Origin: Branchinecta lynchi
Lineage: Eukaryota > Arthropoda > Branchiopoda > Anostraca > Branchinectidae
Length of the DNA stretch: 64,000 bases
NCBI GenBank assembly: GCA_023053575.1
Contig: JAKZAP010000017.1
Span: forward strand, 5,029,501-5,093,500
Direction: 5' to 3'
Both the position numbers and the translations under genes were made by a program. This document shows positions 14,571 to 38,896 of the stretch, one piece after another (position 1 is the stretch's first letter; each line of letters opens with the position of its first letter). The notes beneath the pieces were generated by a model. It had not been told where the DNA came from and ran no database searches. It saw only the letters and a program-made list of their open reading frames with translations.

Positions 14571-15194
14571 GACGAACCGCCCGTAGGGAAAAAAACGGCC
14601 TGGAATCCAGACAAAGCCTGGATTCCGGGCATTTTGCCTGGAGATCCAGGCATTTTGTCTGGATTTCCGGGCTGTAGCCCGGAATTAAAACACTTAACTG
14701 GATTTCCGGACAAGTTTTCTCTGGAAATCCAGGTAATGATGTTTCTTTCCTGGAATTCCAGACACTTTGTTGAAATTCCAGACAGGCCCGAATTTAAATT
14801 TGGTAAGAGCCTGGAATTCCGGGCAGTTTGGTTGTAATTCCAGACAAATCTGGATTTCTGCGACGCCTCTTCTGGAATTCCAGGGTAGCAGTCATATTTT
14901 CCAGGAACTTGACCTACTTGAAATTCTAGAAAGTCCTGACTTTGTGCGCTTCCTCGTCTGTAAATCTAGGGAATACATGCAGAAAGTCTGGTTTGACGAC
15001 AAGAAAGCCTGGATTTCAGTATTAGTTGGTTGATATACTTGAAATTCTAGACAGTCCTGGCTTTGTGCGCTTCCTCGTCTGTAAATCTAGGGATTACATG
15101 CAGAAAGTCTGGTTTGACAACAAGAAAGCCTGGATTTCAGTATTAGTTGGTTGATGCTCCATCAGCCCAAACTGACTGCGAATCATATTTGACG

Positions 15195-15300
15195 GTGCAA
15201 ACCGATAAGTCAGCTACATATCATAAGTCGGCTCCATTTCTACATATAAAAAATGTAGCTGACTTATCCTTTTTGTACCGACACACATTATTAGTTGGAC
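15195..15300. repeat. Small palindromic MITE, TTTGACGGTGCAAA family
   Basis: TTTGACGGTGCAAACCGATAAGTCAGCTACAT, then its inverse ATGTAGCTGACTTATCC with TTTTTGTACCG. Related palindromes are at 18,545-18,662, 36,248-36,368 (both inside copies of the 7-kb element) and 50,936-51,153 (independent location). Confidence 0.75.
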
Positions 15301-16261
15301 TTTAAAGTGTAGCGGAAAAATTATACTGTTCAAAGATTTCGACATTTTCGTGAAGAAAATACCCTCACCAGCATTTTCAAAAATGTCTGAGGAAAATCAT
15401 CCGAAGAAACTGTATGCCGAAAAATATTTTATTAAAATGTCTCGCTTTCAATACTTCTCTTATGAAAGTGTTCAGGCCTGAACAAAAACTTTGAAAGTAA
15501 GAAAACCTCGCGGTAAATTAATAACAGAAAGAGGAGTCGAATCTTTTTTAGTACCTAATTTTTTAACAGTAAGACAGTGTTGAATAATTTATACATCTAC
15601 ATCGGGTCAACATGAGTAAAACACTAAGAAAATACTGTGACAGTAAATTTGCCAACATAAGATCTTATAAGAATTAGACCGTTGTCTTCCGATGAAAGTC
15701 TGCCAAACCCCATGATGAGCTGGCTTTTTCTTAGAAAAAAAAAATAATAAGTAATCGTAGGGTAGGTGAAAATGAGAATTTGAGCGACACGGCCTAGTTA
15801 TGATATCAATGACGCACGGTAGTGATAGTTAAATTACTGTGCACTGCTACAAACAAGAAATCCAATGGATTCCAAGAGAGCATTTGCATTGTCTCAGAAA
15901 ATTTTACTATATTTATACATACTATATAACGGGGTGAAGATGCAAGTTTGCACAGGAATTGCACAACAAATTTGGAGTCAAATTGGACTTCCGGAACCTT
16001 GCTACAATGTTTATCGCAAAAAAAGCAATAAAAATTATGTGTAATATAGAATGAAGAAATTAGTATTTGTCGAAATCTGAACTTCAGAATTATCTTTGAA
16101 TTTCTTCTGACTTCACATGAATATTCGAAAGGTTTGTTACCGGAACAATTTAGCTTTGTTTTCATGTTCAGGGTCAGCTTTGAATCATATATAATTTAGA
16201 AACATAGATCAAGGAAACTGAAAAGGAGGGAAAGGCCGCATCTTTTTTATTCAATGCTGAC

Positions 16262-17060
16262 CTTAGGCGTATTCTCGCCGTTCCCAGAGGACTCCAAATC
16301 AGGAGTCCTCGCGCTTTTGTTTGTCCCGGGGAATGACTCCCCGTATTCTCGCGAGTCCCAGCGGACGGGTAATCCTCCGATTATCATCACCATCATCAAA
16401 AATGACTCCCTTTCAGATTTGGAGGGGTATCAATTTTTGCTGGTTTTGGTGCAGTGTAAATTAATTAAAAATAATCAGAATAAACAAACTAAACAGAATC
16501 TATTGTCGAACCATTCCCAGTATTCTCGCTGTTTATGTACACCGATTCCGCGTGGAGCGACTCCCTTTACACTCTATATGACTGAGTCCAAAACACGCCA
16601 GTGATTCTCAGTAAGAAGGAGTAAACATGTCCGTAACGACTCAAACTCAACGACTCAAATCCTGACACAGCGCAGCTTTGACAATGTTACTACCTTTCTT
16701 CCACAGGTACCTGGAGATTCTGCATCGGTAGGGAGATATAGTCATCAAGAGTATTCTTACCGTTCCCTTCGATTCCCCGAGGAGTCCTCGGGGAACGGCG
16801 AGAATACGCCTCTAGTGTTTTATTTGTCCGACATTTTGTGTGTAGGTCTATTTGTACATTGTGTAACCAAAAATGATTTTTCTGTTAATACTCTTGATGA
16901 CTATCTCTCCTTGCCGATTCAAAATCTCCAGCCTCTCCGGGTACCTGGCGGAAGAAAGGCAGAAGTGGTCTCACAGCTGCTCTCAAAGATCGCCGCCGTG
17001 ACTGTTTGACACAGGATTTGAGTCGTTGGTTTTGAGTCGTTATGGACACGCTTAGTCATG
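16262..17060. repeat. Foldback insert with TATTCTCGCCGTTCCC ends
   Basis: AGGCGTATTCTCGCCGTTCCC at 16,265 is answered by GGGAACGGCGAGAATACGCCT at 16,791-16,811. A second, larger pairing joins about 16,620-16,755 (GTCCGTAACGACTCAAACTC, then GGTACCTGGAGATTCTGCATC) with its inverse at about 16,895-17,045. It is present in both tandem units of the 7-kb element but absent from the inverse copy at 29.9-36.9 kb, which has only a short remnant at 35,205-35,245. Non-coding. Confidence 0.65.
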
Positions 17061-19678
17061 CAGAGTATACAACGAGGTTATCAAGGATTTTAGAGATCCC
17101 ATGTGAGGTTTCCAAGAAAGCCGGGTCGCAACACTCCCGATATATTCAAATAAGCTAGGCAAAAAGCCAGTGTTGCCAAATTTGCGGATTTTACGCCAAA
17201 CTGGCAGATTTTTTCGACCGACTTGCTGATCTTTTTTTGCTGGCTCGGAGATTTATGTATAAAAAGAAACTTTGGCGTATTTTTCAAAAACAGCTGCGTC
17301 AATCCTGGATCACGATCCGGCAACATTGGCCAAGGCTGAAGGAAGGATCTGGAAGTTCAAGAATGAAATGTTCTGTGGATTGTTTGCATTGTCTGTCATG
17401 GATCTTCTTGTGATAGATATGAAGATATGGCTGCTGCATGCAGGATGAATGACATTCTGATATGTAAGTATAAAATGTACTAGTTAGGCCTATGTTCTTG
17501 TTTATGAAAGGTATGAAAGGAGAGGTATCCAACTTCAAATTCATATCAACTCAAACTTGGCTTGAAAACCTTACACGGCTTGAAAAACCTTACAAATTTC
17601 TGTGCAGTCCTTAAACAGGTCCTGCACTGGTCTTGCATTACTCAGAACTGAGGGTTTCCTTCTTGACAGTTAGGACTTTTATAGGACTAGGCTGAAATTT
17701 CCTTCCAACCTTTTTAGGCCAAGTTCGAGCAAACAAACACTAATTTGTTTGTTTCAAGTAAAATAGATAGAGATATAACAAAGATTATATCAGCTAGCAG
17801 CTGTTGATAATCATATACTTTGCTAACGTTGATAATCCTATACTTATTTTTCCATTGGTGATCTCTTTAATTGTTTACATTGAATGACATCTACTTGCAA
17901 CTGCTTCGCAAAACTGCAGGTAACAAGTCTACCACATACAATAGCTGCATTCTTAGCAGTCATCCAGTTAATCTGCCTAAAAGATTTCCCACCATAAACT
18001 GTTTTCTTCCTTCGGTTAATCAACCAAAGTTTTTATAAGCAATTTTTTTACTCCATTTGCTGGTCGGTTAACAAACCTCCCGTAGGGAAAAAAATGACCT
18101 GGAATCCAGACAAAGCCTGGATTCCGGGCATTTTGCCCGGATTTCCGGGCTGTAGCCCGGGATTAAAAAACTTAACTGGATTTCCGGACAAGTTTTCTCT
18201 GGAAATCCAGGTAATGATGTTTCTCTCCTGGAATTCCAGACACTTTGTTGAAATTCCAGACATTCCCGAATTTACATTTGGTAAGAGCTTGGAATTCCGG
18301 GCAGTTGGTTGAAATTCCAGACAAACCTGGATTTCTACGCCACCTCTTCTGGAATTCCAGGGTAACAGTCATATTTTCCAGGAACTTGACCTACTTGAAA
18401 TTCCAGACAGTCCTGGATTTTTGCGCTTCCTCGTCTGTAAATCTAGGGAATACATGCAGAAAGTCTGGTTTGACGACAAGAAAGCCTGGATTTCAGTATT
18501 AGTTGGTAGATGCTCCTTCAGCCCAAGCTGACTGTGAATCTTATTTGACGGTGCAAAACGGATAATCAGCTACATTTTGAATAAGTCAGCTACATTTCTT
18601 AAGTCAGCTCCATTTCTACATCAAAAATGTAGCTGACTTATCCGTTTTGCACCGTCAAATAGGATTAGTTGGATTATAAGGTGTAGCGGAAAAATATACA
18701 CTGTTCAAAGATTCCGACATTTTCGTGAAGAAAATACCCTGATCAGCATTTTCAAAAATGTCTGAGGAAAATCATCCGAAGAAACTGTCTGCCGAACAAC
18801 ATTTTTATTAAAATCTCTCGCTTTCAGTACTTCTCTTATGAAAGTGTTCGGGTCTGAACAAAAACTTTGAAAATAAGAAAACATCGCGGTAAATTAATTA
18901 CAGAAAGAGGAGTCGAATCTTGTTTACTACCTAATTTTTTAACAGTAAGACAGTGTTGCATAATTTATATATCTACATCGGGTCAACATGAGTAAAACAC
19001 TAAGAAAATATTGTGACAGTAAATTTGCCAACGTGAGATCTTGTTAGAAAGTGGTGACAGTTCAGAATTACACTGTTGTCTTCCGATAAAAGAGTGACGA
19101 ACCCCATGATGAGCTGTCTTTTTCTTAGACAAATAAAGTAATAGGTAATCGTATTGTAGTTGAACATGAGAATTTGAGCGGCACGGCCTAGTTATGATAT
19201 CACTGACGCACGGCTGTAATAGTTAAATTATTGTGCACTGCTACAAACAAGAAATCCAATGGATTCCAAGAGAGCATTTGTATTGTCTCGGGAAAATTTT
19301 CCTATATTTAATTGACGATATTGAACTGGGTGAAAATGCGAGTTTGCACAGAAATTTCTCAAAAAATCTGGAGTCAAGTTGGACTTGCGGAACCTTGATA
19401 CGATGTTTATCGCAAAAAAGCTATAAAGATCATGTGTAATATAGAATGCAGAAATGATCCGGCATTATTTGTCGAAATCTGAATTTCCGAATTATCTTTG
19501 ACTTTCTTCTGCAAGGCTCCGAGTTCACATGAACATTCGAAAGGTTTGTTACCGGAATAATTTAGCTTTGGTTTCATGTTCAAGGTCCGCTTTGAATCAT
19601 ATATAATTTAGAAGCATAGATTAAGGAAACTACAAAGGAGGGAAATGCCGCAGCTTTTTTAGTCAATGCTGGCCTTAG

Positions 19679-20510
19679 GCGTATTCTCGCCGTTCCCCGA
19701 GGACCCCAAATGGGGAGTCATCATCACCATCAGCAAAAAGGACTCCCTTTCAGATTTGGAGGGGAATCAATTTTTGCTGGTTTTGGTACAATATAAAATT
19801 AATTAAAAACAATCAGAATAAACAAATTGAACAGAATCTATTTTGGAAGCATTCCCCCTATTCTCGCTGTTTCTGTACACCGAGTCCGCGTGGAGTGACT
19901 CCCTCTATACTCTGTATGACTAAGTCCAAAACACGACTGTGATTCTCAGGAAGAAATAGTAAACGTGTCCGTAACGACTTAAACTCAACGAATCAAATCA
20001 TGACTCAGCGCAGCTTTGACAACGTTTCTTCCTTTCTTCCGTAGGTACGGCAGAGATTCTGCATCGGCAGGGAGCGATACAATTAAGAGTATTCTCACCG
20101 TTCCCTTCGATTCCCCGAGGAGTCCTCCGGGAACAGCTAGAATACGCCTCTGGTGTTTTATTTGTTCAACATTTGTGTGTAGGCCTATTCGTACATTCTG
20201 TAACCAAAAATGATACGAATTATCAAAGAAAAACAGATTTTCTCGTTTGTCCCAAAATAATTTCCGTTTTAGAACATGGGTCTTAGGATTGTTCTGTTAA
20301 TACTCTTGATGACTATTTCTCCCTTGCCGATGCAAAATCTCCGGCCTCTCCGGGTACCTGGCGGAAGAAAGGCAGCTGCTCCCAAAGATCGCCGTGATTG
20401 TTTGACATAGGATTTGAGTCATTGATTTTGAGTCGTTACGGACACGCTTACTCCTTCTTCCTGAGGATCACTGTCGTGTTTTGGACTTCGTCATGCAGAC
20501 TGGCAGAGCA
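19679..20510. repeat. Foldback insert, second copy
   Basis: AGGCGTATTCTCGCCGTTCCC at 19,680 is answered by TAGAATACGCCT near 20,150. Outer arms near 19,916-20,090 (TAAGTCCAAAACACGACTGTG) pair with about 20,290-20,505 (CACTGTCGTGTTTTGGACTT). Same insert as at 16,262-17,060, so it predates the tandem duplication. Confidence 0.65.
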
Positions 20511-22601
20511 TAGAACGAGGTTATCAAGGATTTTAGAGATTCGATGTGAGGTTTTCACGAAAGCCGGGTCGCAACACTCATGATAAATTCAAATGCACTA
20601 GTCAAAAGGTCAGTGTTGCCACATTGACGGATTTTACGCCAAACTGGCAGATTTTTTCGACCGACTTGCTGATTTTTTTTGCTGGCGTGGGAGATTTCTT
20701 GGGATTTATGGTTAAAAAGAAACTTTGGCGCATTTTCAAAGACAGCTGCGTCAATCCTGGATCACGATCTGGCAACGCTGGTCAAGGCTACAGGCAGAGT
20801 TCAAGAATTAAATATTCTGTGGAGTGTTTACATCATCTGTCATGGATCTTCTTGTGATAGATATGAAGATATTGCTGCAGCATGCAGGATGAATGACGTT
20901 CTTATATGTAAGTATAAAATGTACTGCTTAGGTCTATGTACTTGTTTATGACAGGAGGGGTATCCAACCTTGAATTCATATCAACTCAAACTTGGCTTGA
21001 AAACCTTACAAGGAAATTTCTGTGCAGTCCTAAACATGTCCTGCACTGGTCTTGCATTACTCAGAACTCAGGATTTCCTTCTTGACAGTTGGGACTTTTA
21101 TAGGACTGGACTGAAATTTCCTCCCAACCTTTTTAGGCCAAGTTAGAGGTTGTGTAAATTCGAGGTTGGATACCTCACCTGTTTTATGCTTATTTAATAA
21201 TTAGTAACTTTCTACAATCTGAATATTTCACTAATTTGTTTGTTTCAAATCAAATGGAAAGAGGTATAACAAAGATGATATCAGCTAGCAGCCGACTGTT
21301 TCAGTTTACATTTGGCAAAGACATTTTTTTTTCCTTTTTCTAGATTTTTGCTTACGTTGATAATCCTATGCTTCTTTTTCCATTGGTGATCTCTTTAATT
21401 GTTTACATTGAATGACATCTACTTGCAACTACTTCGCAAAACTGCAGGTAACAAGTCTACCAGAAACAATAGCCACATTTTTTGCAGTCATCCAGTTAAT
21501 CGGCCTAAAAGATTTCCCACTATTAGTCATTTTCTTCCTTCGGTTAATCAACCTAAGTTCTTATAAGCTATTTTTTATTCCATTTGCTGGTCGGTAAACC
21601 AACCTGTGGACTGAGGTGGGAGCTCCATCCAGCCGACCTACGCTCTTGGCATGGTGCGAAATTCAAAATTCTCATTGGAGAGATAGGTGCCGGCCATGGG
21701 AAGATGCCATTTGTTCTTATAAGCCGTTTTTTAGAGCTCAGTTGAAAAGACCGGCAAGACAAAAAAACTGTCAATTGTGGCAAATAGGTAGGTTAACAGA
21801 CCTATGGAGAAAAGGCAAATAATGCAGCCAATTGTTTTCATACATTAAAGCCAAATATGTAGGTTCCGACTCGAGCTGCAACCTACTCAACTACAACCTA
21901 CTCAAACTCAACTGTAAAGTAGCAGCAGTAGAGGTATGCTTATTTTTTAGCATCTCTAGAAACCTTTCCAGACCTCTGTTTTGTTTGTTGTCCTTACAGA
22001 ACAGTCCAGTTCCAGGACTGTTCCAACAGTTCCAACAGTTCTTTTCCATTTGATGGGTTGGAAAAGCTAGCAGCAAGGTAATGAAATTGGGATAATCAAC
22101 TTGTTTCAGCGCTTGCTTATCTATCAGGGACGGCAAATATGCCAACCAGTTTTCTGCATTGCATCAGCGACAGTAGTATTTTCTTATTTTATATGGGTAG
22201 GTGTAGCTGATAGAACGTTTGTAACCTCACAAGAAGAAACTGCAGAGACAATGGAAATTGTTCTATAATTGTTGACATACAGGAAATCACTATATGAATT
22301 AAACATTTTCAGCAAATATTTTGCAGTTCAAGTTGCCTGGCATGGGATTTAATTTTTCAGTGGTAATAACATTAAATAAGCATAGGTTGTATGTGCTAAC
22401 GAGTTCTGAATTGGTGGTGTTCGAGCTTGTCTTTATATTGCCAGCTGAGCTCAAATGGTCAATATTTTATTTGGTCATAGTACCATACTCAGCGTTTAGC
22501 ATAGGGTTTCTGGCATTAGGCATAATGTATTCGAGATCCAAACATACCCAGGAGTTATCATAGGTTGTCCAAGAATCAGGGGTTTGTGGTAGACTAAGTC
22601 A

Positions 22602-22800
22602 GGGGCGTCACGACTTGGGGGGGGGGGGGGGACGCCCCCAGTCAACTGACCAAACAGTCAGTTTTTCTGAAAACCAGTTGATTTTTTGTCAAAACTGTTG
22701 TTTTTTTGTTGAAAACAGTCAGTAAAAAATACCAGCCGGTCGGTAAATGCCTCGTCCCCCACACCAAACATTTTGGCTAGTAACGCCTTTGGACTAAGTG
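22602..22800. repeat. G-run repeat (CAGTCAACTGACC family)
   Basis: GGGGCGTCACGACTT, a G15-16 run, ACGCCCCCAGTCAACTGACC, an AAACAGTCAGTTTTTCTGAA block, and finally TTTTGGCTAGTAACGCC. Related copies are at 32,610-32,790, 32,800-32,950, 33,475-33,665, 41,650-41,860 and 42,510-42,695. A non-coding dispersed repeat; the G run is at the same place in each copy. Confidence 0.7.
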
Positions 22801-23879
22801 ACACTGAGTAAAATCTGCAAAACTTGACACAAGAAACAGAAGGAAATTAAGAGAAAACATTCCAAAATAAGGCTGAGCGTAGGCTACTATATACGGTAAA
22901 CTAGAAATAGAACAAAAGGTTTTAGAACGAGTCTTGCAGAGAAGTCGCCTGCCTGGTATGTGCCTTAGTGTTTCTTTGATGACAAAATAAGCATGCCTCT
23001 ACTTATTTCTGGATGTGATTCAAAACCTGCAGACTCATATTCTGGATAACTACTTAAGCGTGGTCACACAGTCGACAGACAAGTTGGTTACTGCAAGTAG
23101 GCTTTAGCCTACTATATCAATATTAATACGAAGTATAGGTTAAAAGATTAAGTTTAGGCTGGAATGAAATGGAGTATATTTAAGCCTTTAGACCAAAGGC
23201 TCCAATCTGCTGAACTGAATTCAGAGTCTGTGAAGCCTCTAGAGACGAGGAGGGTCAGAAAAAAGATCAATCCTAGAGATTTTAGTAAATATGTAAGAGT
23301 TTTTGTTCAGCAAAATGATGGTTATTTTAGGTACGGTAAACAGTTCTAGAATATAGGGTCTTGTTATGCATATTTGGGTTTCACCATTATAACACGAGTG
23401 AGAAATTATATTTGTCTCTGCTTTCTGATAAACTCTCCCATTGTAGAGATCCTTAACCAACTGCTATAGCACCCTCTTAACATTGAGGGAGGAGGGGGGG
23501 GCTGCCCCATTTCCTTGAAATTTCATATTTTGCCAGTGTGTTGAATTTTGGGTAAAATTTATTGTAGTTTCAAGAAAATTTGAACATTTTTTTACATTAA
23601 TATTTGACTTCTAATTTGCCACATGCCAGCAAATCTGTCAGTAGCACCATACGCGAGAGTACCAATTTTAACAATGCATAAGCCAAAAGTCGCACATATG
23701 AAATAGTGAATACATTTTTAGTCGAGTGTTCCTCGAACAATCCACTATTGCGAGCGCCGAAACAGATTTCGGTTTTCACTGTTTTTTTAGAGCTCACTGG
23801 TGAACCAGTGCAGTTAGGCTATCAAGAACAAACTTGATAAACTTGTTGGTGTTGGGGTCCAGTTGTGCCTTTTGATGGT

Positions 23880-24385
23880 CCCACCCCCCACACTTACCCG
23901 GTTCAGGGGCAAATGGGCCCAGATTGCTCAATGAATAATGTTCATAACTTGACCAGAGCTGGACATACGATGATGCAATTCCTCGTATTTGTAGATCCTG
24001 TGGCTGGGAATTACTTTCAAAGTTTCACCTCCCCCACCCATCCCGTTCATGGGCAACTTTGCCCAGATTGACCAAGAGTAAAGTTCATGACCAGTGACAG
24101 GAACCAACAGGTATCAAGTTTACACTTGGTAGGCTTGTGAGCATCGGGGTCCATTTTGCTTTTTGGGGAGCCCCAAACCCCACTCTCACTTGGTTCATAG
24201 GCAGTTGGGCCCATTTTTTAACTTCATGTTTCTAACTTGACAATAACTGGAGATAGGGCGATGAAATTCCTTGTGCTTTTAGATCTTAGGGTTGGGAATA
24301 TACCCTTCATGTGATGTTCAACCACCCTCAACGCTCATGGGCAAGCTGTCCCAAATTGCGCATGAGATACTTGTGGAAATATAGG
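23880..24385 (+). repeat. ~147-bp tandem units inside 7-kb element
   Basis: About four diverged units with TGGGCCCAGATTG-type cores near 23,905, 24,056, 24,203 and 24,345, each followed by a TAACTTGACCAGAGCTGGA-like and an ATGCAATTCCTCGTATTTGTA-like block. The same array is present inverted at 31,470-31,960. Confidence 0.65.
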
Positions 24386-25029
24386 CCTAGACACTCTAGT
24401 TTTGTTTGTATATAGTCACTGCTTGGGAAAAAGGAATCTTGGGTCGATCACTGAAATGGGTGTTTTATTTAGGTAATCCAGCTCAGTGCGAAGGCATCTT
24501 TGGTGTAAGGGATCCAGCGTTTTGCAGATACTTCCATGCAGCATGTGAAGAGAACACAATTTCAGGATTTATGACCGACTGAGATTCAAGTCCCCCCCCC
24601 CCCCCGACTGAGGCATTATATGTTTGGTATCTATTGTTTTACCCTGTAAATAAATCAATTCAAGATGCAACGTTTTCTGCGGACTGCCTTTTTACTGTTG
24701 GTTGTTTGATCTAACTCAGTAAATCAACATTAAGTATCCCATGTGTGTACAAGGATTGATTCGTGCTTGGTTGAATACGAAGAAAGTGGCTTCTAAGGAA
24801 AAAATGGTTTTCTTAGAAATTATAAACAGTTGAAACCTAGGAATGCGGAAACGTATGTTACGGAAGTAAATTGTTTGTTGTGACTTTCAAAAGTCGTACG
24901 ATCAGAAAACGTCGGGGAACAAATTAGTTATGTTTATATTATTTTCATCAGAGCAAAATCCTAGATATATATCCGTCTAGTCAAAGCAAGGTATCAACAT
25001 ATCAGTTAAGTTTCTGGACAGTTGTGGAA

Positions 25030-25600
25030 AAAACGAAGTCTGGAATCCAGAACAGACGAGCCGTCTGGAATCCAGAACAGACTAGCCGTCTGGAATCCAG
25101 GATATACAGGTAGTCTGAATCCCGGAACTGGAAATTTGGAACCTGGAATCCAGACGAAGCCTGGAATTCAGCCCGGACTCCTAATCTGGAAATTTGTAAC
25201 CTGGAATACGGACAAAGCCTGGAATCCAGCCCAGAATTCTAGTCTGGAAATTTGGAACCTGGAATCCGGACAAAGCCTGGAATCCAGCCCAGAATTCTAG
25301 TCTGGAAATTTGGAACCTGGAATCCGGACGAAGCTTGGAGTCCAGCCCAGAATTCTAGTCTGGAAATTTTGAACCTGGAATCCGGACAGAGCCTGGAATT
25401 CAGCCCAGAATTCTAGTCTGGAAATTTGGAACCTGGAATCCGGACAAAGCCTGGAATTCAGCCCGGAATCCTAGTCTGGAAATTTGGAACCTGGAATCCG
25501 GATGAAGTCTGGAATTCCAGAATCAGCCCGGAATTCCAGAATCAGCCCGGAATCCAGGTTCCAAATTTCCAGATGCCTGGATTCTAGGCCGATTTTTACC
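25030..25600. repeat. Subterminal repeat array of the 7-kb element
   Basis: Well over a dozen copies of GGAATCCAG/GGAATCCGG, organised as about 60-bp units (TCTGGAAATTTGGAACCTGG, then AATCCGGACAAAGCCTGG). The array lies directly inside the CCCTACGGG terminus. The mirror array in the other copy is at 29,925-30,300. Such arrays are typical transposase-binding subterminal regions in some DNA transposon superfamilies; that role is inferred here. Confidence 0.75.
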
Positions 25601-25634
25601 CTACGGGGGCTAGCGTCAAGAGAACGAATAAAAA

Positions 25635-25956: not shown

Positions 25957-26265
25957 TTACTGAGTAAACAGTTCTAAATCCACATATGTTTCTTTGTTCT
26001 TGTTTTCGCGTACAATAGGCTGCAAAACTAGATTTTTCTTTAAGAGTAATTCGTTAGCAATGGAATTGTATTTCTGTGTTATAAACAAATCACATGGTTT
26101 GTCATTATGATTAATGACTACAACCAACTTATCACCATATTTTGTCTTAGCAATTCTCATTTTAACGATAGTATATTTCAGTCCTAGAACTAGTTCTTCT
26201 TTCCTGATTGTCTCATTGTATTTATTCATTCTGATTGTATTCAAGACTTCCTTTGTGGACTCCAT
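25957..26265 (-). CDS. Polinton-associated small protein, possibly OB-fold-like
   Basis: Intact 102-codon ORF starting at an ATG (MESTKEVLN) on the minus strand. The central part, LVLGLKYTIVKMRIAKTKYG, followed by a short beta-rich stretch, fits a small beta-barrel nucleic-acid-binding protein, and similar small proteins occur in animal Polintons. The function is not established; ssDNA binding is only a guess from the pattern. It is co-oriented with the gene at 26,756-27,178, 490 bp away with a SINE inserted between, and divergent from the polymerase gene. Codon use is AT-rich like the other Polinton genes. No break is seen. Confidence 0.55.
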   Translation of the reverse strand: MESTKEVLNTIRMNKYNETIRKEELVLGLKYTIVKMRIAKTKYGDKLVVVINHNDKPCDLFITQKYNSIANELLLKKNLVLQPIVRENKNKETYVDLELFTQ

Positions 26266-26513
26266 TTCTTAGTGGATGATTTTATTAAATAAAAATCCAG
26301 GCTCACAACCTCACATACATATTTTTATTGATAATATCTAATGTAAAAAAAAAATCCAAATCGATATTCATCAAATCATCAAATTAAAATCTCCTCGACG
26401 TACCCACAATTCTGCCTCTAGTACTGATAAAACTCTTAGGGCAACAAAAAACAGAAAATCTCATTGCGCATTAGTATTCACATCACAAAACATTTCGTTG
26501 CGGAGATTTTGCA

Positions 26514-26705
26514 GGCCCCGTTGGTGTAGTGGTCTAAGATTTTGCAACGTCTTAGATCAACCACTTCATCAATGACAATGATGTCGTGAGATCGAATCCC
26601 GCCATCAACTTGAGGTTAATGGTGAGGATGGCGAACAAAAAACTCAGAGGGTTTCCTCCCCTCACGGGGCACCCCAGACACACCATAAAAAATAATAAGA
26701 CGACA
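26514..26705 (+). repeat. tRNA-derived SINE
   Basis: A tRNA-like head: GCCCCGTTGGTGTAGTGGTC (A-box-like) at 26,516, an arm pair TGGTCTAAGA/TCTTAGATCAACCA, then GTGAGATCGAATCCCGCC (B-box-like) at about 26,586-26,603. The body continues through CCTCCCCTCACGGGGCACC to an AT-rich end near 26,700. The long stretch between the arms recalls a Ser/Leu-type tRNA origin. A split internal Pol III promoter plus an unrelated body indicates a SINE rather than a functional tRNA. It lies between two leftward Polinton genes, so it inserted after the Polinton did. Confidence 0.65.
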
Positions 26706-26755
26706 AATTAACATCTTCAATCTTCAAAGTCTGGGGTGGGAGGTTTGCAAAAATT

Positions 26756-27178
26756 TTATATTTTCGGTAAATTTTCTTGTATTTTGATAGTTTCGTTCTT
26801 ACAATATTTATAACCGTTCAAGCGAACCTGTTTCATGTATTTTTCGCGAGGAAAAAATCGAAAGGTTTTACGCATCTCTGTTTCTCTCTGAATTACCTCC
26901 TCAATTGTTAATTGTCCGCATTTTAGCATTGACAACAACTCAGTATAAAAATTGTAATTTGTCCTAAATTCTGCTTTTCTATCAGCAATGCTTAACTGCT
27001 TTTCAATTATTTCGATGATAACAGCACCCAAACTTAAAGAAGCTAAAGGTAGCACTAGAAACGCAGACATTCCTGCTGCCGAAAAGAGGAATTTGGATAC
27101 AAGTAAGCTATTACTTATACGATTGTAGTACTTGTAACTGCGACGGTAAACATACATTTTCTTTTCTAATTCTTCCAT
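26756..27178 (-). CDS. Polinton-associated two-TM membrane protein (SLATT-like layout)
   Basis: Intact 140-codon ORF with an ATG start. The N-terminal 20 residues are Lys/Arg/Tyr rich (YVYRRSYKYYNRISNSLL). They are followed by two adjacent hydrophobic segments at about residues 24-42 and 44-58, then a charged helix-prone stretch (IIEKQLSIADRKAEFRTNYN, about 56-75), and a basic C-terminus. Basic amphipathic helix, TM hairpin and cytosolic coiled coil is the layout of SLATT-type proteins. The role in the element is unknown; a membrane-active or accessory protein is possible. It faces away from the polymerase gene across the 86-bp repeat array. Confidence 0.55.
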   Translation of the reverse strand: MEELEKKMYVYRRSYKYYNRISNSLLVSKFLFSAAGMSAFLVLPLASLSLGAVIIEIIEKQLSIADRKAEFRTNYNFYTELLSMLKCGQLTIEEVIQRETEMRKTFRFFPREKYMKQVRLNGYKYCKNETIKIQENLPKI

Positions 27179-27269
27179 TTATTATGTAATAAAATTGTTT
27201 CAGAAATTATTTGATTGAATGAAAGGTTCGCGATTCGGAACACATCCGCCACCTGCTAAACTGTATGGA

Positions 27270-27595
27270 ATCTTTCTTGACTGATCGGAGAGAATCTAGA
27301 TAGCGCTTGCTCCGTGAAACGCAAAACACATCTGCTATCTACGGAACTGTACTGAAACTTTCTTGACTGATCGGAGAGAATCTAGATAGCGCTTGCTCCG
27401 TGAAACGCAAAACACATCTGCTATCTACGGAACTGTACTGAATCTTTCTTGACTGGTCGGAGAGAATCTAGATAGCGCTTGCTCCGTGAAACGCAAAACA
27501 CATCTGCTATCTACGAAACTGTACTGAAACTTTCTTGACTGATTGGAGAGAATCTAGACAGCGCTTGCTCTGTGAAACGCATACTGAAACCAGTG
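27270..27595. repeat. 86-bp tandem repeat, about 4 units, in divergent gap
   Basis: TTTCTTGACTG recurs at 27,273, 27,359, 27,445 and 27,531, exactly 86 bp apart. Units are nearly identical and contain TCTAGATAGCG and its partial inverse TGCTATCTACG, so each can form a short hairpin. The array lies between the leftward gene pair and the rightward SAP/polymerase gene. A promoter, enhancer or replication-origin role is inferred from position only. Confidence 0.85.
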
Positions 27596-27660
27596 CTTTT
27601 CTTTAAGGCTGAGAAAATTCAGACGGGAGAAATTCATTAATAAAAATGTTCCCCTATTAA

Positions 27661-29923
27661 ATGATGAATACTGCAGTGGTTATTCAGCTTTGTAAAAAGG
27701 TTATATCAAACAACAAAGCGGTTATACAAAGATTATCGCTATACACATATAATGAACTGCGGACTAATGCGAAAATTATTAAAATCAAAACAAATGGAGC
27801 TAAGAAACATGAAATAACAAATAATATAATAAACCATCTTAATAAGTATATTTTGATAGCTGAAGATAAAATTAAAATTGAACGCAGAAACGAAAGAACT
27901 CATAATAAGAACAGACCATCCGACTACAAACCAGAACCGAGATTACGAACCATTCTGGAAGATGAAATAAACTAAATAATATCACCATTACAAAACTAAA
28001 ACAAGAATACAATGATAACAAAGAAAAAGAGACAAGCGAATTAAAGAAATTTCTGAAAAACAAGAACCTATCAACTCGCGGGAACCGAGAAGAAGTACTA
28101 AAAAGAGTTGGAGAATACTATAATAATATTATTACCAAACATAAAGATTCCGTACAGAGAAATAGAGATATCATAAGAGATCAAACAGAAAGACGTGATA
28201 ACAGTAGACAGAAACCAATTGGTTTATCAACTCTCTTCATAAATAAGAAAAAAAATCAAAGAAGAAAAATTAATTCCTGATCATTTATTTAGAACTGAAG
28301 AAGAACAACAACCTACTATCTCTAGGGAAAATGAGAATTTGTACACTGTAAACGTATCAGTTGAAAGCAATGGAAGAGATGAACATACTCTTATTGCTTT
28401 TGTTTTCGCAGATTTGAGACGAAGAATGAATGAACTTTATCAGTATAGAGTTCAGTTTGTAACTCGTGTTATTTTCCATCGACAGGAGAATGATGAAGAA
28501 GTAGTAGTATATTACAACAGTACTTCTTGGATTTTAAATAAAAATAGTATTCTTACTCATAATCATTTGGATGATAATAACAAGAGACTTAGTTCTTTAA
28601 GTAATACCCCTCGATCTGGGCTACAATTTAGTCGGTATGCAGGAATTGATTATAGGATGACACGAATAGAATCTTACATGGGAGGAACGTTTAAAATACT
28701 GCCAGATTTCGTAAAAAATAAAAGAGCTTGCTTGAATATTGAAAATAACGACCAGAAATGTTTCCTTTGGTCTATCTTAGCAAATCTACATCCAGCTAAG
28801 GATCATCCGGAAAGAATTTCGAAACATAAACAATATGAGAACGAATTTGATTTCGAAGGAGTTGCCAACTTCCCAATGGATACTAAAGATATACACAAAT
28901 TTGAAAATAGATACAACATTAAGATTTGTTTATTTCAAATTGAAAAAGAGAAAATTATCAGAAGTCATATACTAAAAAGAACAATCAATGGCAAAACAGC
29001 TAAACATGTTATTAATTTATTATATTTCGATAATCATTATGTACTGGTAAAGGATCTGAGCAGATTAGTTGTTCCTCAAATATCTACAAGACAAAAAAAG
29101 ACATACCTCTGCACTTTTTGCGGAAGGCATTTTACAAAAGAAGAACAATATGAAAAACATGAGAGTAAAAATAATTACGAAGATCCTGATATTATAATGC
29201 CTCCTGAAGGTTCAAGTATACAATATATAAATATTGCAAAACAAATGAAAGTACCTTATTGCATAATAGCAGACTTTGAGTCTTATAACGAAGAATACAA
29301 TCAGGTAGACGGAAAGAAAACAATAAAAGTGGCCAAACAGAAAACATTTGCTTACGGATTTCAGGTATGCTGTTCCTTTGATACAAACCAGAACAAATAC
29401 TATGACTATTTTGGTGAAGACGCTGCAGAACATTTTGTTAAAACCGTTACAAAGGTATCCACAGAAATTGCAAACAAATATGAAAGCAGACAAAGAAACC
29501 ATACTTATACCAATGGAGAAATTACCGAAATATGGAATAAACTAATTAAAAGACTTGTCACATCTGTACAACTGAAATTACTGAAAATCCTCCTTTGATC
29601 ACGACCACATGACAGGAGAAGATAGGGGATTTGCTCATGCTGAATGTAATATGAAATACAGGATTCCTAGGCATATCCCGGTAGTAATGCATAATTTATC
29701 AAAATATGACTCTCATTTATTTGTTAGAGATTTGATACCTGATAACGGAATTTTTGAAAGTGCAGAAAGTTTCATCTCATTCTCAAAATCAATAAGTATT
29801 ACAAATGCGGATACGAAAATAAAATATGAGACGCGGTTTATAGATTCAATTAGATTTATGGCTTCATCTTTAGACAAACTATCAGCAAATTTAGCAAAAT
29901 GTGATTGCAAACCCGTAGGGTAA
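27661..29923 (+). pseudogene. Polinton SAP-domain / protein-primed DNA polymerase B, N-terminal part (broken)
   Basis: The first half of the replicative polymerase of a Polinton. Segments in order: an N-terminal SAP-like helical block (27,740-27,850); a frameshift near 27,970; a second SAP-like block (SELKKFLKNKNLSTRGNREE, about 28,035-28,095); a shift in an A8 run at about 28,250; and a long open frame to 29,598. That frame holds a CLNIENNDQKCFLWSILANL block, a C2H2-like finger (CTFCGRHF..KHE) and exonuclease motif I (IADFESY) at about 29,265. Two more shifts at 29,550-29,600 flank a treble-clef-like DHDHMTGEDRGFAHAECN. Exo II (HNLSKYDSHLF) is near 29,690. It ends where the 7-kb element enters after FMASSLDKLSANL. 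The enzyme family replicates linear DNA from a terminal protein. The gene is dead, with at least four frameshifts plus the insertion. The rest is at 36,856-38,603. Confidence 0.85.
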
Positions 29924-32548
29924 AAATCAGCCTGGAATCCAGGCATCTGGAAATTTGGAACCTGGATTCCAGGCTGATTCTAGAATTCCAGACTTCATCC
30001 CGGATTCCAGGTTCCAAATTTCCAGACTACAATTCTGGGCTGGATTCCAGGCTTTGTCCGGATTCCAGGTTCCAAATTTCCAGACTAGAATTCTTGACTG
30101 GATTCCAGGCTTTGTCCGGATTCCAGGTTCCAAATTTCCAGATTAGGACTCTGTGCTGAATTCCACGCTTCGTCTGGATTCCAGGTTCCTAATTTCCAGT
30201 TCCGGGATTCCAGACTACCTGTATATTCTGGATTCCAGACGGCTAGTCTGTTCTGGATTCCAGACGGCTCGTCTGTTCTGGATTCCAGACTTCATTTGTT
30301 CCTCAACTGTCCAGAAACATTACTGATATGTTGATACCTTGCTTTGACTGGAAGGATATATATCTAGGATTTCGCTCTGATAAAAATAATATAAACATAA
30401 CTAATTTTTTCCCAGACGTTTTCTCATCTTACGACTTTCGAAAGTCACAACAAACAATTTACTTCCGTGGCATAAATTTCCGCATTCCTTGGTTTCAACT
30501 CTTTCTAATATCTAAGAAAACCTTTATTTTTCTGAGAAACTACTTTCTTCGTATTCAACCAAGCACGAATGAATCCTTGTACAAATGTGATAATTAATGT
30601 TGATTTAATGATTTAGATCAAACAAACAACAATAAAAAGGCAGTCGGCAGAAAACGTTGCATCTTGAATAGATTTATTTACAAGGTAAAACGATAGATAC
30701 CAAACAATGGTGATAAAGCCTTTGGTCTTGAATCTCAGTCGGTCATAAAGCCTGAAATTGTGTTCTCTTCACGTGCTGCATGGAAGTATCTGCAAAACGC
30801 TGGATCCCTTACACCAAAGCTGCCTTCGTATTGAGCTGGGTTACCTAAATAAAACACCCATATTTCAGTGATCGACCAAAGATTCCTTGTTCCCAAGCGG
30901 TGACTAGTGAGCAAGTGCTCAAACGTAGAGTGTGAAAGTAAAATGTTTACAAACAGCGTTAGAACCAAGACATTTCATATCCCCAATAATTAAACAAGTA
31001 TTTTAACAGCCAAATTTGAAACCATCCCACTTTCAAAGCTTTTAGTCGAAACAAACGGTATGCAGAATTCGAGATCCTGAAAATCTTTCTTTCAATTTCA
31101 ATACTGATTGTATTTCTAGCCAGTCTGAGCCTTTAAGCCTCTTTTCCATTAGCATGGTTTTAATAAGTGCAATACCAAATCGTAGCAGCCTAATACCCCC
31201 TTCGTTAAAACTGCATGAAGGACGGCAATTCCTAGATCATATGACAAAGCCGTTCAATTTCCAACTTTTCATGAAGGATTGAAGCACGTCGCGCAGTGGT
31301 ATTTGTTACTGTTAGACTAAAATCCACATCTATAGGCTACATATATTTCGCCAAATACACAAGAGTTGAACTTGAGACCTACCACAGACAGGAAATCTAG
31401 GCCCAGCTGCCCATTAACGGGAGGATGGGGGGGGGGGTCGTGACCCATCAAAATGTGTGTCTAGACCTATATTTCCACTAGTATCTCATGCGCAATTTGG
31501 GACAACTTTCCCATGAGCGTTGAGGGTGGTTGAACTCACATGTATATTCCCAACCAAAAGATCTAAAAGCACAAGAAATTTCATCGCCCTATCTCCAGTT
31601 ATTGTCAAGTTAAAAACATTAAAAGTTAAACAATGGGCGCAACTGCCTATGAACCAAGTGGGGGTGGGGTTTGGGGGTTCCCAAAAAGCAAAATTAGACC
31701 CCGATGCTCAAAAGCCTACCAAGTGTAAACTTGATACCTGTTGGTTCCTGTCACTGGTCATGAACTTTACTCTTGGTCAATATGGGCAAAGTTGCCCATG
31801 AACGGGATGGGTGGGGGAGGTGAAACTTTGAAAGTAATTCCCAGCCACAGGATCTACAAATACGAGGAATTGCATCGTCGTATGTCCAGCTCTGGTCAAG
31901 TTATGAACATTATTCACTGAGCAATCTGGGCCCATTTGTCCCTAAACCGGGTAGGTTTGGGTGTTCACCAGTTATGAGCTCTAAAAAAACAGTGAAAACC
32001 GAAATCTGTTTTGGCGCTCGCAATAGTGGATTGTTCGAGGAACACTCGACTAAAAATGTATTCACTATTTCATATGTGCGACTTTGGCTTATGCATTGCT
32101 AAAATTGGTACTCTCGCGTGGTGCTACTGACAGATTTGCTGGCATGTGGCAAATAAGAAGTCAAATATTAATGTAAAAAAAAAATCAAATTTTGTTGAAA
32201 CTACAATAAATTTTACCCAAAATTCGACACACTGGCAAAATATGAAATTTCAAGGAAATTGGGCAGCCCCCCCCCCCCTCCTCCCCCAACGTTAAGAGGG
32301 TGCTATAGCAGTTGGTTAAGGATCTCTACAATGGGAGAGTTTATCAGAAAGCAGAGACAAATATAATTTCTCATTCGTGTTAGAATGGTGAAACCCAAAT
32401 CTGCACAACAAGACCCTATATTCTAGAACTGTTTACCGTACCTAAAATAACCATCATTTTGCTGAGCAAAATCATTACAGATTTACTAAAATCTCTAGGA
32501 TTGATCTTTTTTCCGACCCTCCTCTTCTCTAGAGGCTTCACGGACTAT

Positions 32549-33640
32549 TTTGGAATGTTTTCTCTTAATTTCCTTCTGTTTCTTGTGTCAAGTTTTGCAG
32601 ATTTTACTCAGTGTCACTTAGTCCAAAGGCATTACTAGCCAAAATGTTTGGTGTGGGGGATGAGGCATTTACTGACCGGATGGTAATTTTTACTGACTGT
32701 TTTCAACAAAAAAACAACAGTTTTGAAAAAAATCAACTGGTTTTCAGAAAACTGACTGTTTGGTCAGTTGACTGGGGGCGTCCACCCCCCCCCCCCAGTC
32801 AACTGACCAAACAGTCAGTTTTTCTGAAAACCAGTTGATTTTTTTTCAAAACTGTTGTTTTTTTGTTGAAAACAGTCAGTAAAAATTACCATCCGGTCAG
32901 TAAATGCCTCATCCCCCACACCAAACATTTTGGCTAGTAATGCCTTTGGACTAAGTGACACTGAGTAAAATCTGCAAAACTTGACACAAGAAACAGAAGG
33001 AAATTAAGAGAAAACATTCCAAAATAAGGCTGAGCGTAGGCTACTTCTGAATTCAGTTCAGCAGATTGGAGCATTTGGTCTAAAGGCTTAAATACACTCC
33101 AATTCATTCCAGCCCAAACTTAATCTTTTAACCTATACTTCGTATTAATACTGATATAGTAGGCTAAAGCCTACTTGCAGTAACCAACTTGTCTGTCGAC
33201 TGTGTGACCACGCTTAAGTAGTTATCCAGAATATGCAGGTTTTGAATCACATCCAGAAATAAGTAGAGGCATGCTTATTTATTCATCAAAGAAACACTAA
33301 GACACATACCAGGCAGGCGACTTCTCTGCAAGACTCGTTCTAAAACCTTTTGTTCTATTTCTAGTTTACCCTGTATAGTAGCCTACGCTCAGCCTTATTT
33401 TGGAATGTTTTCTCTTAATTTCCTTCTGTTTCTTGTGTCAAGTTTTGCAGATTTTACTCAGTGTCACTTAGTCCAAAGGCATTACTAGCCAAAATGTTTG
33501 GTGTGGGGGATGAGGCATTTACTGACCGGATGGTAATTTTTACTGACTGTTTTCAACAAAAAAACAACAGTTTTGAAAAAAAATCAACTGGTTTTCAGAA
33601 AAACTGACTGTTTGGTCAGTTGACTGGGGGCGTCCCCCCC
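32549..33640. repeat. Inverted triplication in copy 2 of the 7-kb element
   Basis: The block TTTTGGAATGTTTTCTCTTA...CAGTTGACTGGGGGCG occurs at 32,549-32,785 (+), inverted at about 32,799-33,030, and again (+) at about 33,393-33,635. The first two form an almost perfect hairpin around CCACCCCCCC. Copy 1 has a single copy (22,620-22,880, opposite strand). Confidence 0.8.
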
Positions 33641-36247
33641 CCCCCCCAGTCGTGACGCCCCTGACTTAGCCTACCACAAATCCCTGATTTTTGGACAACC
33701 TATGATAACTCCTGGGTATGTTTGGATCTCGAATACATTATGCTAAACGCTGAGTATGGTACTATAACCAAATAAAATATTGACCATTTGAGCTCAGCTG
33801 ACAATACAAAGACAAGCTCGAACACCACCAATTCAGAACTCGTTAGCACATAAAACCTATCCTTATTTTATCTTATTACCACTGAAAAATTAAATACCAT
33901 GCCAGGCAACTTGAACTGCAAAATATTTGCTGAAAATGTTTAATTCATATAGTGATTTCCTGTATGTCAACAATTATAGAACAATTTCCATTGTCTCTGC
34001 AGTTTCTTCTTTTGAGGTTACAAACGTTCTATCAGCCACACCTACCCATATAAAATAAGAAAATCCTACTGTCGCTGATGCAATGCAGAAAACTGGTTGG
34101 CATATTTGCCATCCCTGATAGATAAGCAAGCGCTGAAACAAGTTGATTATCCCAATTTCATTACCTTGCTGCTAGCTTTTCCAACCCATCAAATAGAAAA
34201 GAAGGAAGTTCAAATTTGAGAAGTTTATGTTAATCCAACATTAAATTGGTGCAGAAAAATTGCTTAAATATATAGCTCTTAACTGGTATCAGTTTTGTTA
34301 TTTTATTCTTTTGACTGTTCTATAAGGACAACAAACAAAACAGAGGTCTGGAAAAGTTTCTAGAGATGCTAAAAAATAAGCATACCTCTACTGCTGCTAC
34401 TTTACAATTGAGTTTGAGTAGGTTGTAGTTGAGTAGGTTGCAGCTTGAGTCGGAGCCTACATATTTGGCTTTAATGTATGAAAACAATTGGCTGCATTTT
34501 TGCCTTCTCTCCATAGGTCTGTTAATCTACCTATTTGCCACAATTGACAGTTTTTTCGTCTTGCCGGTCTTTTCAACTGAGCTCTAAAAAACAGCTTATA
34601 AGAACAAATGGCATCTTCCCATGGCCAGCACCTATCTCTCCAATGCGAATTTTGAATTTCGCGCCATGCCAAGAGCGTAGGTCGGCTGGATGGAGCTCCC
34701 ACCTCAGTCCACAGGTCGGTTAACCGACCAGCAAATGGAATAAAAAATAGCTTATAAAAACTTAGGTTGATTAACCGAAGGAAGAAAATGACTAATAGTG
34801 GGAAATCTTTTAGGCCGATTAACTGGATGACTGCAAAAAATGTGGCTATTGTTTCTGGTAGACTTGTTACCTGCAGTTTTGCGGAGTAGTTGCAAGTAGA
34901 TGTCATTCAATGTAAACAATTAAAGAGATCACCAATGGAAAAAGAAGCATAGGATTATTAACGTCAGCAAAAATCTAGAACAAGGAAAAAAAATGTCTAT
35001 GCCAAATGTAAACTGAAACAGTCGGCTGCTAGCTGATATCATCTTTGTTATACCTCTTTCCATTTGACCTGAAACAAACAAATTAGTGAAATATTCAGAT
35101 TGTAGAAAGTTACTAATTATTAAGTAAGCATACAACAGGAGAGGTATCCAACCTCGAATTTACACAACATCGAACTTGGCCTAAAAAGGATGGGAGGAAA
35201 TTTCAGTCCTCAGGGAACGGCGAGCGTACGCCTAAGGTCAGCATTGACTAAAAAAGTTGCAGCATTTCCCTCCTTTGTAGTTTCCTTAATCTATGCTTCT
35301 AAATTATATATAATTCAAAGCGGACCTTGAACATGAAACCAAAGCTAAATTATTCCGGTAATAAACCTTTCGAATGTTCATGTGAAATCGGAGCCTTGCA
35401 GAAGCAAGTCAAAGATAATACGGAAATTCGGATTTTGACAAATAATGACGGATCATTTCTGCATTCTATATTACACATGATCTTTATAGCTTTTTTGCGA
35501 AAAACATCGTATCGAGGTTCCGGAAGTCCAACTTGACTCCAGATTTTTTGAGAAATTTCTGTGCAAACTCGCATTTTCACCCCGTTCAATATCGTCAATT
35601 AAATATAGTAAAATTTTCCCGAGACAATGCAAATGCTCTCTTGGAATCAATTGGATTTCTTGTTTGTAGCAGTGCACAATAATTTAACTATCACAGCCGT
35701 GTGTCAGTGATATCATAACTAGGCCGTGCCGCTCAAATTCTCATTTTCAACTACCCTACGATTACCTATTACTTTATTTGTCTAAGAAAAAGACAGCTCA
35801 TCATGGGGTTTATCACACTTTCATCGGAAGACAACAGTGTAATTCTGAACTGTCACCACTTTCTAACAAGATCTCACGTTGGCAAATTTATTGTCACAAT
35901 ATTTTCTTAGTGTTTTATTCATGTTGACCCGATGTAGATATATAAATTATGCAACACTGTCTTACTGTTAAAAAATTAGGTAGTAAACAAGATTCGACTC
36001 CTCTTTCTGTAATTAATTTACCGCGATGTTTTCTTATTTTCAAAGTTTTTGTTCAGACCCGAACACTTTCATAAGAGAAGTACTGAAAGCGAGAGATTTT
36101 AATAAAAATGTTGTTCGGCAGACAGTTTCTTCGGATGATTTTCCTCAGACATTTTTGAAAATGTTGATCAGGGTATTTTCTTCACGAAAATGTCGGAATC
36201 TTTGAACAGTGTATATTTTTCCGCTACACCTTATAATCCAACTAATC

Positions 36248-36370
36248 CTATTTGACGGTGCAAAACGGATAAGTCAGCTACATTTTTGATGTAGAAATGG
36301 AGCTGACTTATGAAATGTAGCTGACTTATTCAAAATGTAGCTGATTTATCCGTTTTGCACTGTCAAATAA
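36248..36370. repeat. Small palindromic MITE inside copy 2
   Basis: TTTGACGGTGCAAAACGGAT at 36,250 and ATCCGTTTTGCACTGTCAAA near 36,366, with three internal GTAGCTGACTTAT-type blocks. Counterpart of 18,545-18,662. Confidence 0.75.
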
Positions 36371-36855
36371 GATTCACAGTCAGCTTGGGCTGAAGGAATA
36401 TTACCAACTAATACTGAAATCCAGGCTTTCTTGTCGTCAAACCAGACTTTCTGCATGTATTCCCTAGATTTACAGACGAATAAGCGCAAAAATCCAGGAC
36501 AGTCTGGAATTTCAAGTAGGTCAAGTTCCTGGAAAATATGATTGTTACCCTGGAATTCCAGAAGAGGTGGCGTGGAAATCCAGGTTTGTCTGGAATTTCA
36601 ACCAACTTCCCGGAATTCCAGGCTCTTACCAAATGTAAATTTGGGCCTGTCTGGAATTTCGACAAAGTGTCTGGAATTCCAGGAAAGAAACATCATTACC
36701 TGGATTTCCAGAGAAAACTTGTCCGGAAATCCAGTTAAGTTTTTTAATCCCGGGTTACAGCCCAGAAATCCGGGCAAAATGCCTGGATCTCCAGGCAAAA
36801 TGCCCGGAATCCAGGCTTTGTCTGGATTCCAGGCCGTTTTTTTCCCTACGGGAAG

Positions 36856-38603
36856 TACCTTGTAATCATCTAAGACAGAATTTCAAATTCACATCGTAGA
36901 CATTCGTAGACAGTTTCGATAAAATGAAATGTACAAAGTTACCACCAATAGAAAGCTTTTATTCTAGGTTGACGGGGAAAGGTTTTGACAAAAGTGATTA
37001 TAAAAGAGCGGTATCTATATGGAAGCAATTTAACTGTGAAACATTACTTGGTTATACCAAATTATATCTAAAAAGTGATGTTTTAATATTGTCGGATGTT
37101 GTAGAGAATTTCAGGAACGTTTGTATACATAATTATGATGTGGATCCACTTCATTCCTTCTCAGCTCCAGGACTAACATGGGATGCTTTCCTAAAGCATT
37201 CGAAAGTAGACTCGCCGTTATTCTCAAAGGAAGACATGAATACCTTTATAGAAAAAGGAATAAGGGGTGGTGCATCCCAATGTATAAAAAGATACGCAAA
37301 AGCAAATAATAAATATACAAGTGATTATAATAAGCATAAACCATCTAATTATTTAATGTATTTAGACGCTAATAATTTATATGGGTGGGTGATGTCGCAG
37401 AATTTACCAGCGAATGATTTCCAATTCCTTTTAATACCGGATGATTTGAAAGAAAGGAATGAATACGAATCATTCGAGTATTACAACCATCTAAAAACTC
37501 ATATCAATTCGATAATGAAATTACAGAATGTAGGTGCTATATATGAAGTAGATTTAGAATATCCAAAAGAACTACATGAATTACACAAGGATTTACCATT
37601 AGCACCCGAACACTTTAACGGTAAGCTATGTACCACAGTATTAGATAAAACCAACTATATAGTTCACCACTGGAATCTAGAATTCTATTTACAAAAAGGT
37701 TTGATATTGAAAAGAGTACACAGAATACTAGGATTCACTGAAAGTGCTTACTTAAAAGGATATATAGACCACAACACAGCACTTAGAACTAAAGTTACAA
37801 ATGATTTTGAAAAGGATTTCTTTAAGCTTATGAATAATGCTTGCTTTGGAAAAACTATGGAAAACGTAAGGAAGCGAGCGGATATGGAAATAATAACGGA
37901 TGATACAACAAGAGAAAAAATAATAAAGAAACCCAACTTTAATTCTGAAATAATATTCAGTGAAAACTTTTCAGTAGCAAGAATGTCAAAGGAAAAGATA
38001 AAATTAGACGAACCAATGTATATCGGCTTTGCTGTATTGGAACTATCCAAGTTATTGATGTATGAATTCCATTATGATTATATGAAGCCTAAATATGAAT
38101 ATAAAATTGATTTGTGTATATGGGCACTGATTCTTTCATCTATGATATTAGAACTGAAGATTTTTATCAAGATATCAAACAGGATTTGAATGAGAGGTTC
38201 GATACATCTGATTATGCGAAAGAAAATCCATATGGGTTTCCTAGTGTAAATAAGAAAGTGATAGGAATGATGAAAGATGAATTAGGTGGACAGGTTATGA
38301 CAGAGTTTGTTGGATTACGATCAAAAGTATATACTTATTTAAAGGACAACCAAGACCCTTCAAAAGCTAGCACTGAAAGGAATAAAAACCAATATAGTTA
38401 AAGATAAAATTACGATTCAAAACTATAAGGATGTACTGTTTGGTAAAACGGAAAACCTTTCTATAACCCAGTATAACTTAAGATCATACAAGCACAATAT
38501 GTTTCTAGAACAACAGAATAAAAAAGCGTTAGATTCAAAGGATGATAAAAGGATAGTAACAAGCGATAAAATACACACTTTACCTTTAGGTTATAAACAT
38601 TAA
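36856..38603 (+). pseudogene. Polinton DNA polymerase B, C-terminal part (broken)
   Basis: Continuation of the gene cut at 29,911. The open frame 36,924-38,100 carries exo III (YLKSDVLILSDV, near 37,060), the TPR-region YAKANNKY.. stretch, motif A (YLMYLDANNLYGWVM, near 37,350) and motif B (KLMNNACFGKTMENV, near 37,830). A frameshift near 38,100 moves motif C to another frame, where it reads YMGTDSF (about 38,114-38,137). The family has DTDS, so the first catalytic aspartate is replaced by glycine. A VNKKVIGMMKDELGG block follows, then a second shift near 38,370, and the final block KTNIVKDKITIQNYKDV..DKIHTLPLGYKH ends at a stop at 38,601-38,603. An in-frame stop also lies between the insertion site and 36,924. 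Too damaged to be active. Confidence 0.85.
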
Positions 38604-38872: not shown

Positions 38873-38896
38873 TAATGAAAAATTCTTCCTAAATAA

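Follow-up and report, generated by a model that had tools for sequence, protein, structure and literature searches.

Plant En/Spm (CACTA) elements have CACTA termini, make a 3-bp duplication and carry subterminal binding-site clusters near both ends. Among animal elements of the TRC type, a 2006 study described CCC termini together with 2-bp direct repeats in SmTRC1, in one Tribolium element and in one Aedes element, the repeats being present at 7 of 14 SmTRC1 copies (PMC1636069). Spongebob_HMa, a 5.8-kb CACTA element of Hydra that is listed with EnSpm-4N1_HM, likewise starts with CCC, has a 2-bp duplication and contains a transposase that is not exactly readable (PMC4298943). A 2025 paper gives duplications of 2-5 bp for the CMCT clade and 5'-CA..TG-3' ends 'in most cases' for CMC-type elements (PMC12730594). 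Here we describe a family of transposons with terminal inverted repeats (TIRs) from Branchinecta lynchi, which we provisionally regard as a new, large, non-coding family of this known CACTA/EnSpm-like kind. The analysis is centred on a 64,000-nucleotide stretch of contig JAKZAP010000017.1 (positions 5,029,501 to 5,093,500, hereafter the window), which holds three copies of the family, designated copies 0, 1 and 2 (Table 1).

An earlier note, made from the letters of the window, had described copy 2 as a large non-coding TIR transposon with exact ends and with subterminal arrays of the GGAATCCAG type at both of them, and this description held up. More specifically, the 9-mer CCCGTAGGG, of which the window has five occurrences (0.14 on average after shuffling), begins at 29912 and its reverse complement finishes at 36852. 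Typical ends in the family read CCCGTAGGGAAAAAAACGGCCTGGAATCCAG on the left and CCCGTAGGGAAAAAATCGGCCTGGAATCCAG on the right, forming an almost perfect 31-bp TIR with the termini CCC..GGG. Within copy 2, the leftmost 350 bp contain 7 and the rightmost 390 bp 11 occurrences of the palindromic motif YYGGA(W1-3)TCCRR, compared to a maximum of 1 in 200 shuffles; some of the right-end motifs are arranged as tandem arrays of 58-bp and 25-bp units. The two ends of copy 1 contain 8 and 14 motifs (shuffled end segments, at most 1), and the interiors of both copies (6,201 bp for copy 2) contain none, with about 0.1 expected by chance. Identity per aligned 250-bp window is 91-99% between copies 1 and 2, except for one window at 89%, and 86-95% between copies 0 and 1, with one window at 82%.

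Genomic copies were collected by their ends, as the earlier note had advised, from the 575.7-Mb assembly of 216 contigs. A 300-bp left-end query returned 41 rows: one is a weak internal match, and the others establish a minimum of 40 left ends, of which the window holds three. Including the query itself, 28 of the 40 show 94-100% identity to it across at least 299 of 300 bases, these similarity counts being lower bounds (40 of 75 candidates scored). Furthermore, the 31-bp TIR pattern, allowing up to two mismatches, matched 75 times genome-wide, with 37 hits in forward and 38 in reverse orientation; the pattern reversed as a control matched 0 times. The ends are near-identical from copy to copy, whereas variable ends had been named beforehand as an observation that would refute the earlier description. 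The family has probably been mobile recently. Right ends lacking a left mate were found at C1:17300521, C6:8066008, C10:21676931 and C11:30374486, as well as at C17:7475454, C17:12022140 and C154:68272; they may derive from a related element that differs in its left end. A cluster of at least four copies in both orientations, with five left and four right ends, lies at C6:18286138-18325402, and one complete copy in it (18297053-18305056, CA/CA) is nested 512 bp inside another.

To define insertion sites, left and right ends were paired by orientation and distance, and 60 bases around the right end were taken for 20 copies, all 20 of which have an exact 2-bp duplication. Seven further copies have one too, namely copy 2, L082, L084, L089, L095 (whose first base is A, not C), the 1,477-bp copy in L071 and C6:18325352-18315252. 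An exact 2-bp duplication is therefore present in 27 of 27 end-paired copies, 26 of them outside the window, compared to a mean of 4.1 matches and a maximum of 13 in 20,000 shuffled end pairings. For the last-named C6 copy, an outer one at a place where one right end serves two left ends, the matching pairing was chosen, and omitting it leaves 26 of 26; the C6 left end 18297053 mismatched with 18312548 and was paired instead with the nearer right end 18305056 (CA/CA). The duplication extends to 3 bp once, within a C run, and never to 4 bp.

In element orientation the 27 dinucleotides are TA (7), TT (5), AC, GA and CA (3 each), CG and AT (2 each), CC and AA (1 each). The earlier note had read the duplication as AA, which holds for its length but does not extend to the family: there are nine dinucleotides, only 6 of the 27 copies have AA or TT, and the duplication of copy 2 itself is TT when read in element orientation. 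The preceding base is C in 13 of 27 copies and the following base is G in 12, giving a weak C|TA|G preference. Orientation of the dinucleotide relative to the element is non-random (asymmetry p ~0.008, from one post-hoc test on 27 sites): the complements of CA, GA and AC are missing and TT exceeds AA by 5:1, while 33 left flanks, many from the same copies, include one TC and two AA.

These sites bear on several other explanations. Duplication of a segment or satellite, with no transposon involved, could produce the copy clusters of C6 and the window, in which some copies are inverted or self-nested; it is contradicted by the spread over many contigs, by near-identical ends with different immediate flanks and by the 2-bp duplication at each copy, and we consider its chance negligible. 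piggyBac elements make a 4-bp TTAA duplication and Tc1/mariner elements a TA duplication. A relative of either would fit with TA being the commonest dinucleotide, and CC..GG termini are common to piggyBac and IS1380 (PMC10045372), but dinucleotides other than TA make up 20 of the 27 duplications, none of which reaches 4 bp, so that this explanation is already contradicted and very improbable. Insertion between AAA and TTT with no duplication, as in Spy, was not observed either.

A transposase from the PHIS group (Harbinger, ISL2EU and Nuwa relatives) instead of CACTA deserves somewhat more weight, although we still regard it as unlikely. PHIS elements make no duplication or one of 1-4 bp (PMC10045372), ISL2EU and NuwaII share with the family short duplications (2 and 3 bp) at a palindromic target, and the C|TNA|G preferred by NuwaII is similar to the weak C|TA|G seen here (PMC4482050). 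However, the target of ISL2EU and NuwaII is AT or TNA (PMC4482050), and the PHIS targets given in these papers are fixed or nearly so (AT, TWA, ANT, CWG, TNA), whereas the family dinucleotide varies and is AT in only 2 of 27 copies. In addition, PIF/Harbinger TIRs are described as usually beginning with A or G, and Pangu TIRs with AG or GG.

The claim that the element has no recognised open reading frame (ORF) was confirmed, the longest frame in copy 2 being no more than 149 aa, and no stop-to-stop frame above 150 aa was found in seven full copies (copies 1 and 2, L082, L084, L089, L094 and L095, the latter over all but 100 of its bases). A Pfam scan of one element ORF (34457-34906) gave no match. 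Copy spans are 7.7-8.7 kb for 19 of the 27 copies and 1.5, 6.9, 9.2, 10.1, 12.2, 12.6, 21.4 and 23.0 kb for the rest, the 9.2- and 12.2-kb copies lying on C19. In the first 10 kb of the 23.0-kb copy (L080) a reverse-transcriptase ORF lies within an insertion; in the first 10 kb of the 12.6-kb copy (L081) the last 4 kb are unalignable to copy 1 and hold two ORFs with no Pfam match; and in the 4 kb seen of the 21.4-kb copy (C2:8580291-8601708) an insertion starts at about element position 2919 and has repeats shared with the window. Except for these unaligned stretches, the parts seen of the three copies are collinear with copy 1. Locus L083 has a left end followed 9 kb on by an element-interior piece, and the one ORF scanned there had no match. 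Altogether, 10 of the 30 listed ORFs of the fetched loci were scanned: three matched RVT_1, one is an integrase located outside the element, another has a weak match under the cut-off and five have no match. The longer relative with a transposase between the same ends, for which the earlier note had hoped, was not found in the inspected parts of these three, out of five copies above 9 kb that lie outside the C6 cluster. Genome searches with PF02992 (Transposase_21) and PF18759 (Plavaka) gave no match, and the 14 control genomes were equally silent, so these searches count neither way.

The absence of a transposase from the sequence examined, with both models silent in genome and controls alike, is also what would be expected if the family belonged to a new superfamily of DNA transposons, with a transposase from an undescribed lineage unlike any reported. 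Its signature would be the CCCGTAGGG termini, palindromic CTGGAWTCCAG arrays near the two termini, a 2-bp duplication of free sequence that weakly prefers C|TA|G, and a biased dinucleotide orientation. Among the papers listed by literature searches, which covered article text and not Repbase, no match to the family TIR and the arrays was seen. The 9-mer occurs in 71 papers, of which the 15 listed include no transposon paper by title, and it is absent from the 10 papers listed by a combined search. Yet the transposase may sit elsewhere in the genome, and CCC ends combined with 2-bp duplications are already known from published elements, so that we hold a new superfamily to be improbable.

Those published elements also answer the earlier statement that the element fits no superfamily: TIRs starting with CCC and 2-bp duplications have been reported for animal CACTA/EnSpm elements (PMC1636069, PMC4298943), and because the TRC elements have them the family is placed there. 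The assignment, favoured but provisional, is drawn from anatomy. SmTRC1 and other animal TRC elements resemble the family in the CCC start and 2-bp flanking repeats, in TIRs of 10-54 bp, comparable with 31 bp here, in the occurrence of shortened derivatives and, for SmTRC1, in an internal tandem-repeat region; SmTRC1 differs in being about 4.5 kb long and encoding a Transposase_21 protein, whereas the family is mostly about 8 kb with no coding detected (PMC1636069). Spongebob_HMa differs in its TIR, CCCAGCCAACATTGAC, and in its distribution in Hydra with shorter insect relatives, and the published account of its structure, as far as it concerns us, makes no mention of subterminal palindromes (PMC4298943).

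Several observations weigh against this placement and the transposition it implies. The CCCGT ends have only CCC in common with the printed TRC TIRs, and CCC..GGG is not the CA..TG of most members of the CMCT clade, from which TRC elements differ as well. No transposase was found between family ends in the parts seen of the 12.6-, 21.4- and 23.0-kb copies. Finally, four pairings, excluded from the 27, have no duplication: copy 1 (CT/GG), copy 0 with the right end of copy 1 (CG/GG), the inner C6 left end 18323353 with 18315252 (CA/TT) and the outer C6 left end 18296541 with 18312548 (CA/TA). Lack of a consistent 2-bp duplication had been named in the earlier note as refuting its description; the 27 copies have it and copy 1, in the window itself, does not. 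All four pairings fall in three self-nested loci with two successive left ends, where homologous deletion can take away one end per copy, as may have happened to copies 0 and 1. Self-nesting can in this way make single copies appear to lack a duplication.

Taken together, we infer a cut-and-paste family that is mobilised in trans and inserts at a 2-bp stagger, most likely belonging to the animal CACTA/EnSpm superfamily, TRC type. A transposase supplied in trans would recognise the 31-bp TIR together with the CTGGAWTCCAG-like palindrome clusters inside each end, the putative binding sites, and excise the element; insertion at a 2-bp staggered cut would then leave the variable duplication with its weak C|TA|G preference. 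Subterminal clusters at both ends are also a feature of plant En/Spm elements, which differ in their CACTA termini and 3-bp duplication. The best interpretation of the 1,477-bp copy, in which about 870 bp remain at the left end and about 600 bp at the right, is that a copy with an internal deletion has transposed; since this short copy has its own TA duplication, the ends appear sufficient in cis, and this natural derivative suggests which DNA is required there. The family adds to the sparsely described animal CACTA/EnSpm elements a well-delimited set of 27 end-paired copies with base-exact insertion sites, from which duplication and target preference can be measured.

Table 1. Family copies, their parts and the PolB-like pieces in the window.
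Feature	Position	Strand	Remarks
Copy 2, complete non-autonomous element, 6,941 bp	29912..36852	-	left end 36852, right end 29912
Left 31-bp TIR of copy 2, CCCGTAGGGAAAAAAACGGCCTGGAATCCAG	36822..36852	-	TIR pattern match
Right 31-bp TIR of copy 2, CCCGTAGGGTAAAAATCAGCCTGGAATCCAG	29912..29942	+	TIR pattern match
AA target duplication of copy 2	29910..29911 and 36853..36854	none	both sides read
Left subterminal region of copy 2, 7 motifs	36503..36852	-	motif count
Right subterminal region of copy 2, 11 motifs	29912..30301	+	motif count, tandem-repeat search
58-bp tandem array, right end of copy 2	29985-30199		
25-bp tandem array, right end of copy 2	30205-30290		
Copy 1, 7,529 bp	18079..25607	+	opposite orientation to copy 2; left end abuts copy 0
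Right TIR of copy 1	25577..25607	-	TIR pattern match
Copy 0, left half of older copy	14580..18078	+	stops at ~element position 3527, where copy 1 starts
Left TIR of copy 0	14580..14610	+	TIR pattern match
PolB-like piece	28243-29598		
PolB-like piece	29585-29911		Pfam PolB match under cut-off
PolB-like piece	36900-38189		

Copy 2 was said to interrupt a recognisable gene. PolB-like pieces do flank it on both sides, but the naming of the gene is weak. Ahead of the junction, a 109-aa piece has a match to PF03175 with an E of 4e-4, under the Pfam cut-off, and the 429-aa piece beyond the junction matched no Pfam family. The gene looks, tentatively, like a Polinton-type DNA polymerase B (PolB). Downstream of it a Pox_A32-type ATPase was identified with Pfam at 38897-39565; a search with this protein found 2,407 relatives, and all among the 120 matches listed bear PF04665 (Pox_A32). 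We take the PolB-like pieces and the ATPase to be of Polinton type, presumably together with a protease-like reading seen by eye at ~40911-41200, and read the region ~25700-41300 as a degraded element of the Polinton/Maverick type. Inside this stretch lies an 86-bp tandem array (27239-27581, 3.8 copies, 95% matches). The PolB piece had no confirmed relative among viral contigs. Those contigs contain 45 stretches with the 15-base end pattern of the family, none with an array or a blastn match to copy 1, and these are likely chance hits. Phage records gave no megablast match to the element, and Rfam at gathering thresholds gave none over the whole window.

Several repeats were noted in addition. 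Inside copy 2, positions 32792-33045 are repeated in inverted orientation at 33377-33630 and positions 32546-32732 are repeated at 32840-33026, both with 100% identity; 41660-41831 and 42519-42689 are diverged relatives (70-73%) of this segment (32546-33045/33377-33630), which is perhaps another small transposon. A direct repeat of ~775 bp (44008-44782 and 46146-46915) is 98% identical, with starts ~2.1 kb apart. A dispersed family of ~137-bp tandem units, mutually ~65-74% alike, occupies 5021-5684, 46852-47518, 53574-54203, 55605-56159 and 59544-60093, and relatives of it (71-78%) occur within the insertion that the 21.4-kb C2 copy carries. Reverse-transcriptase fragments (RVT_1) are located at 43003-43716 on the plus strand and at 61171-61902 on the minus strand.

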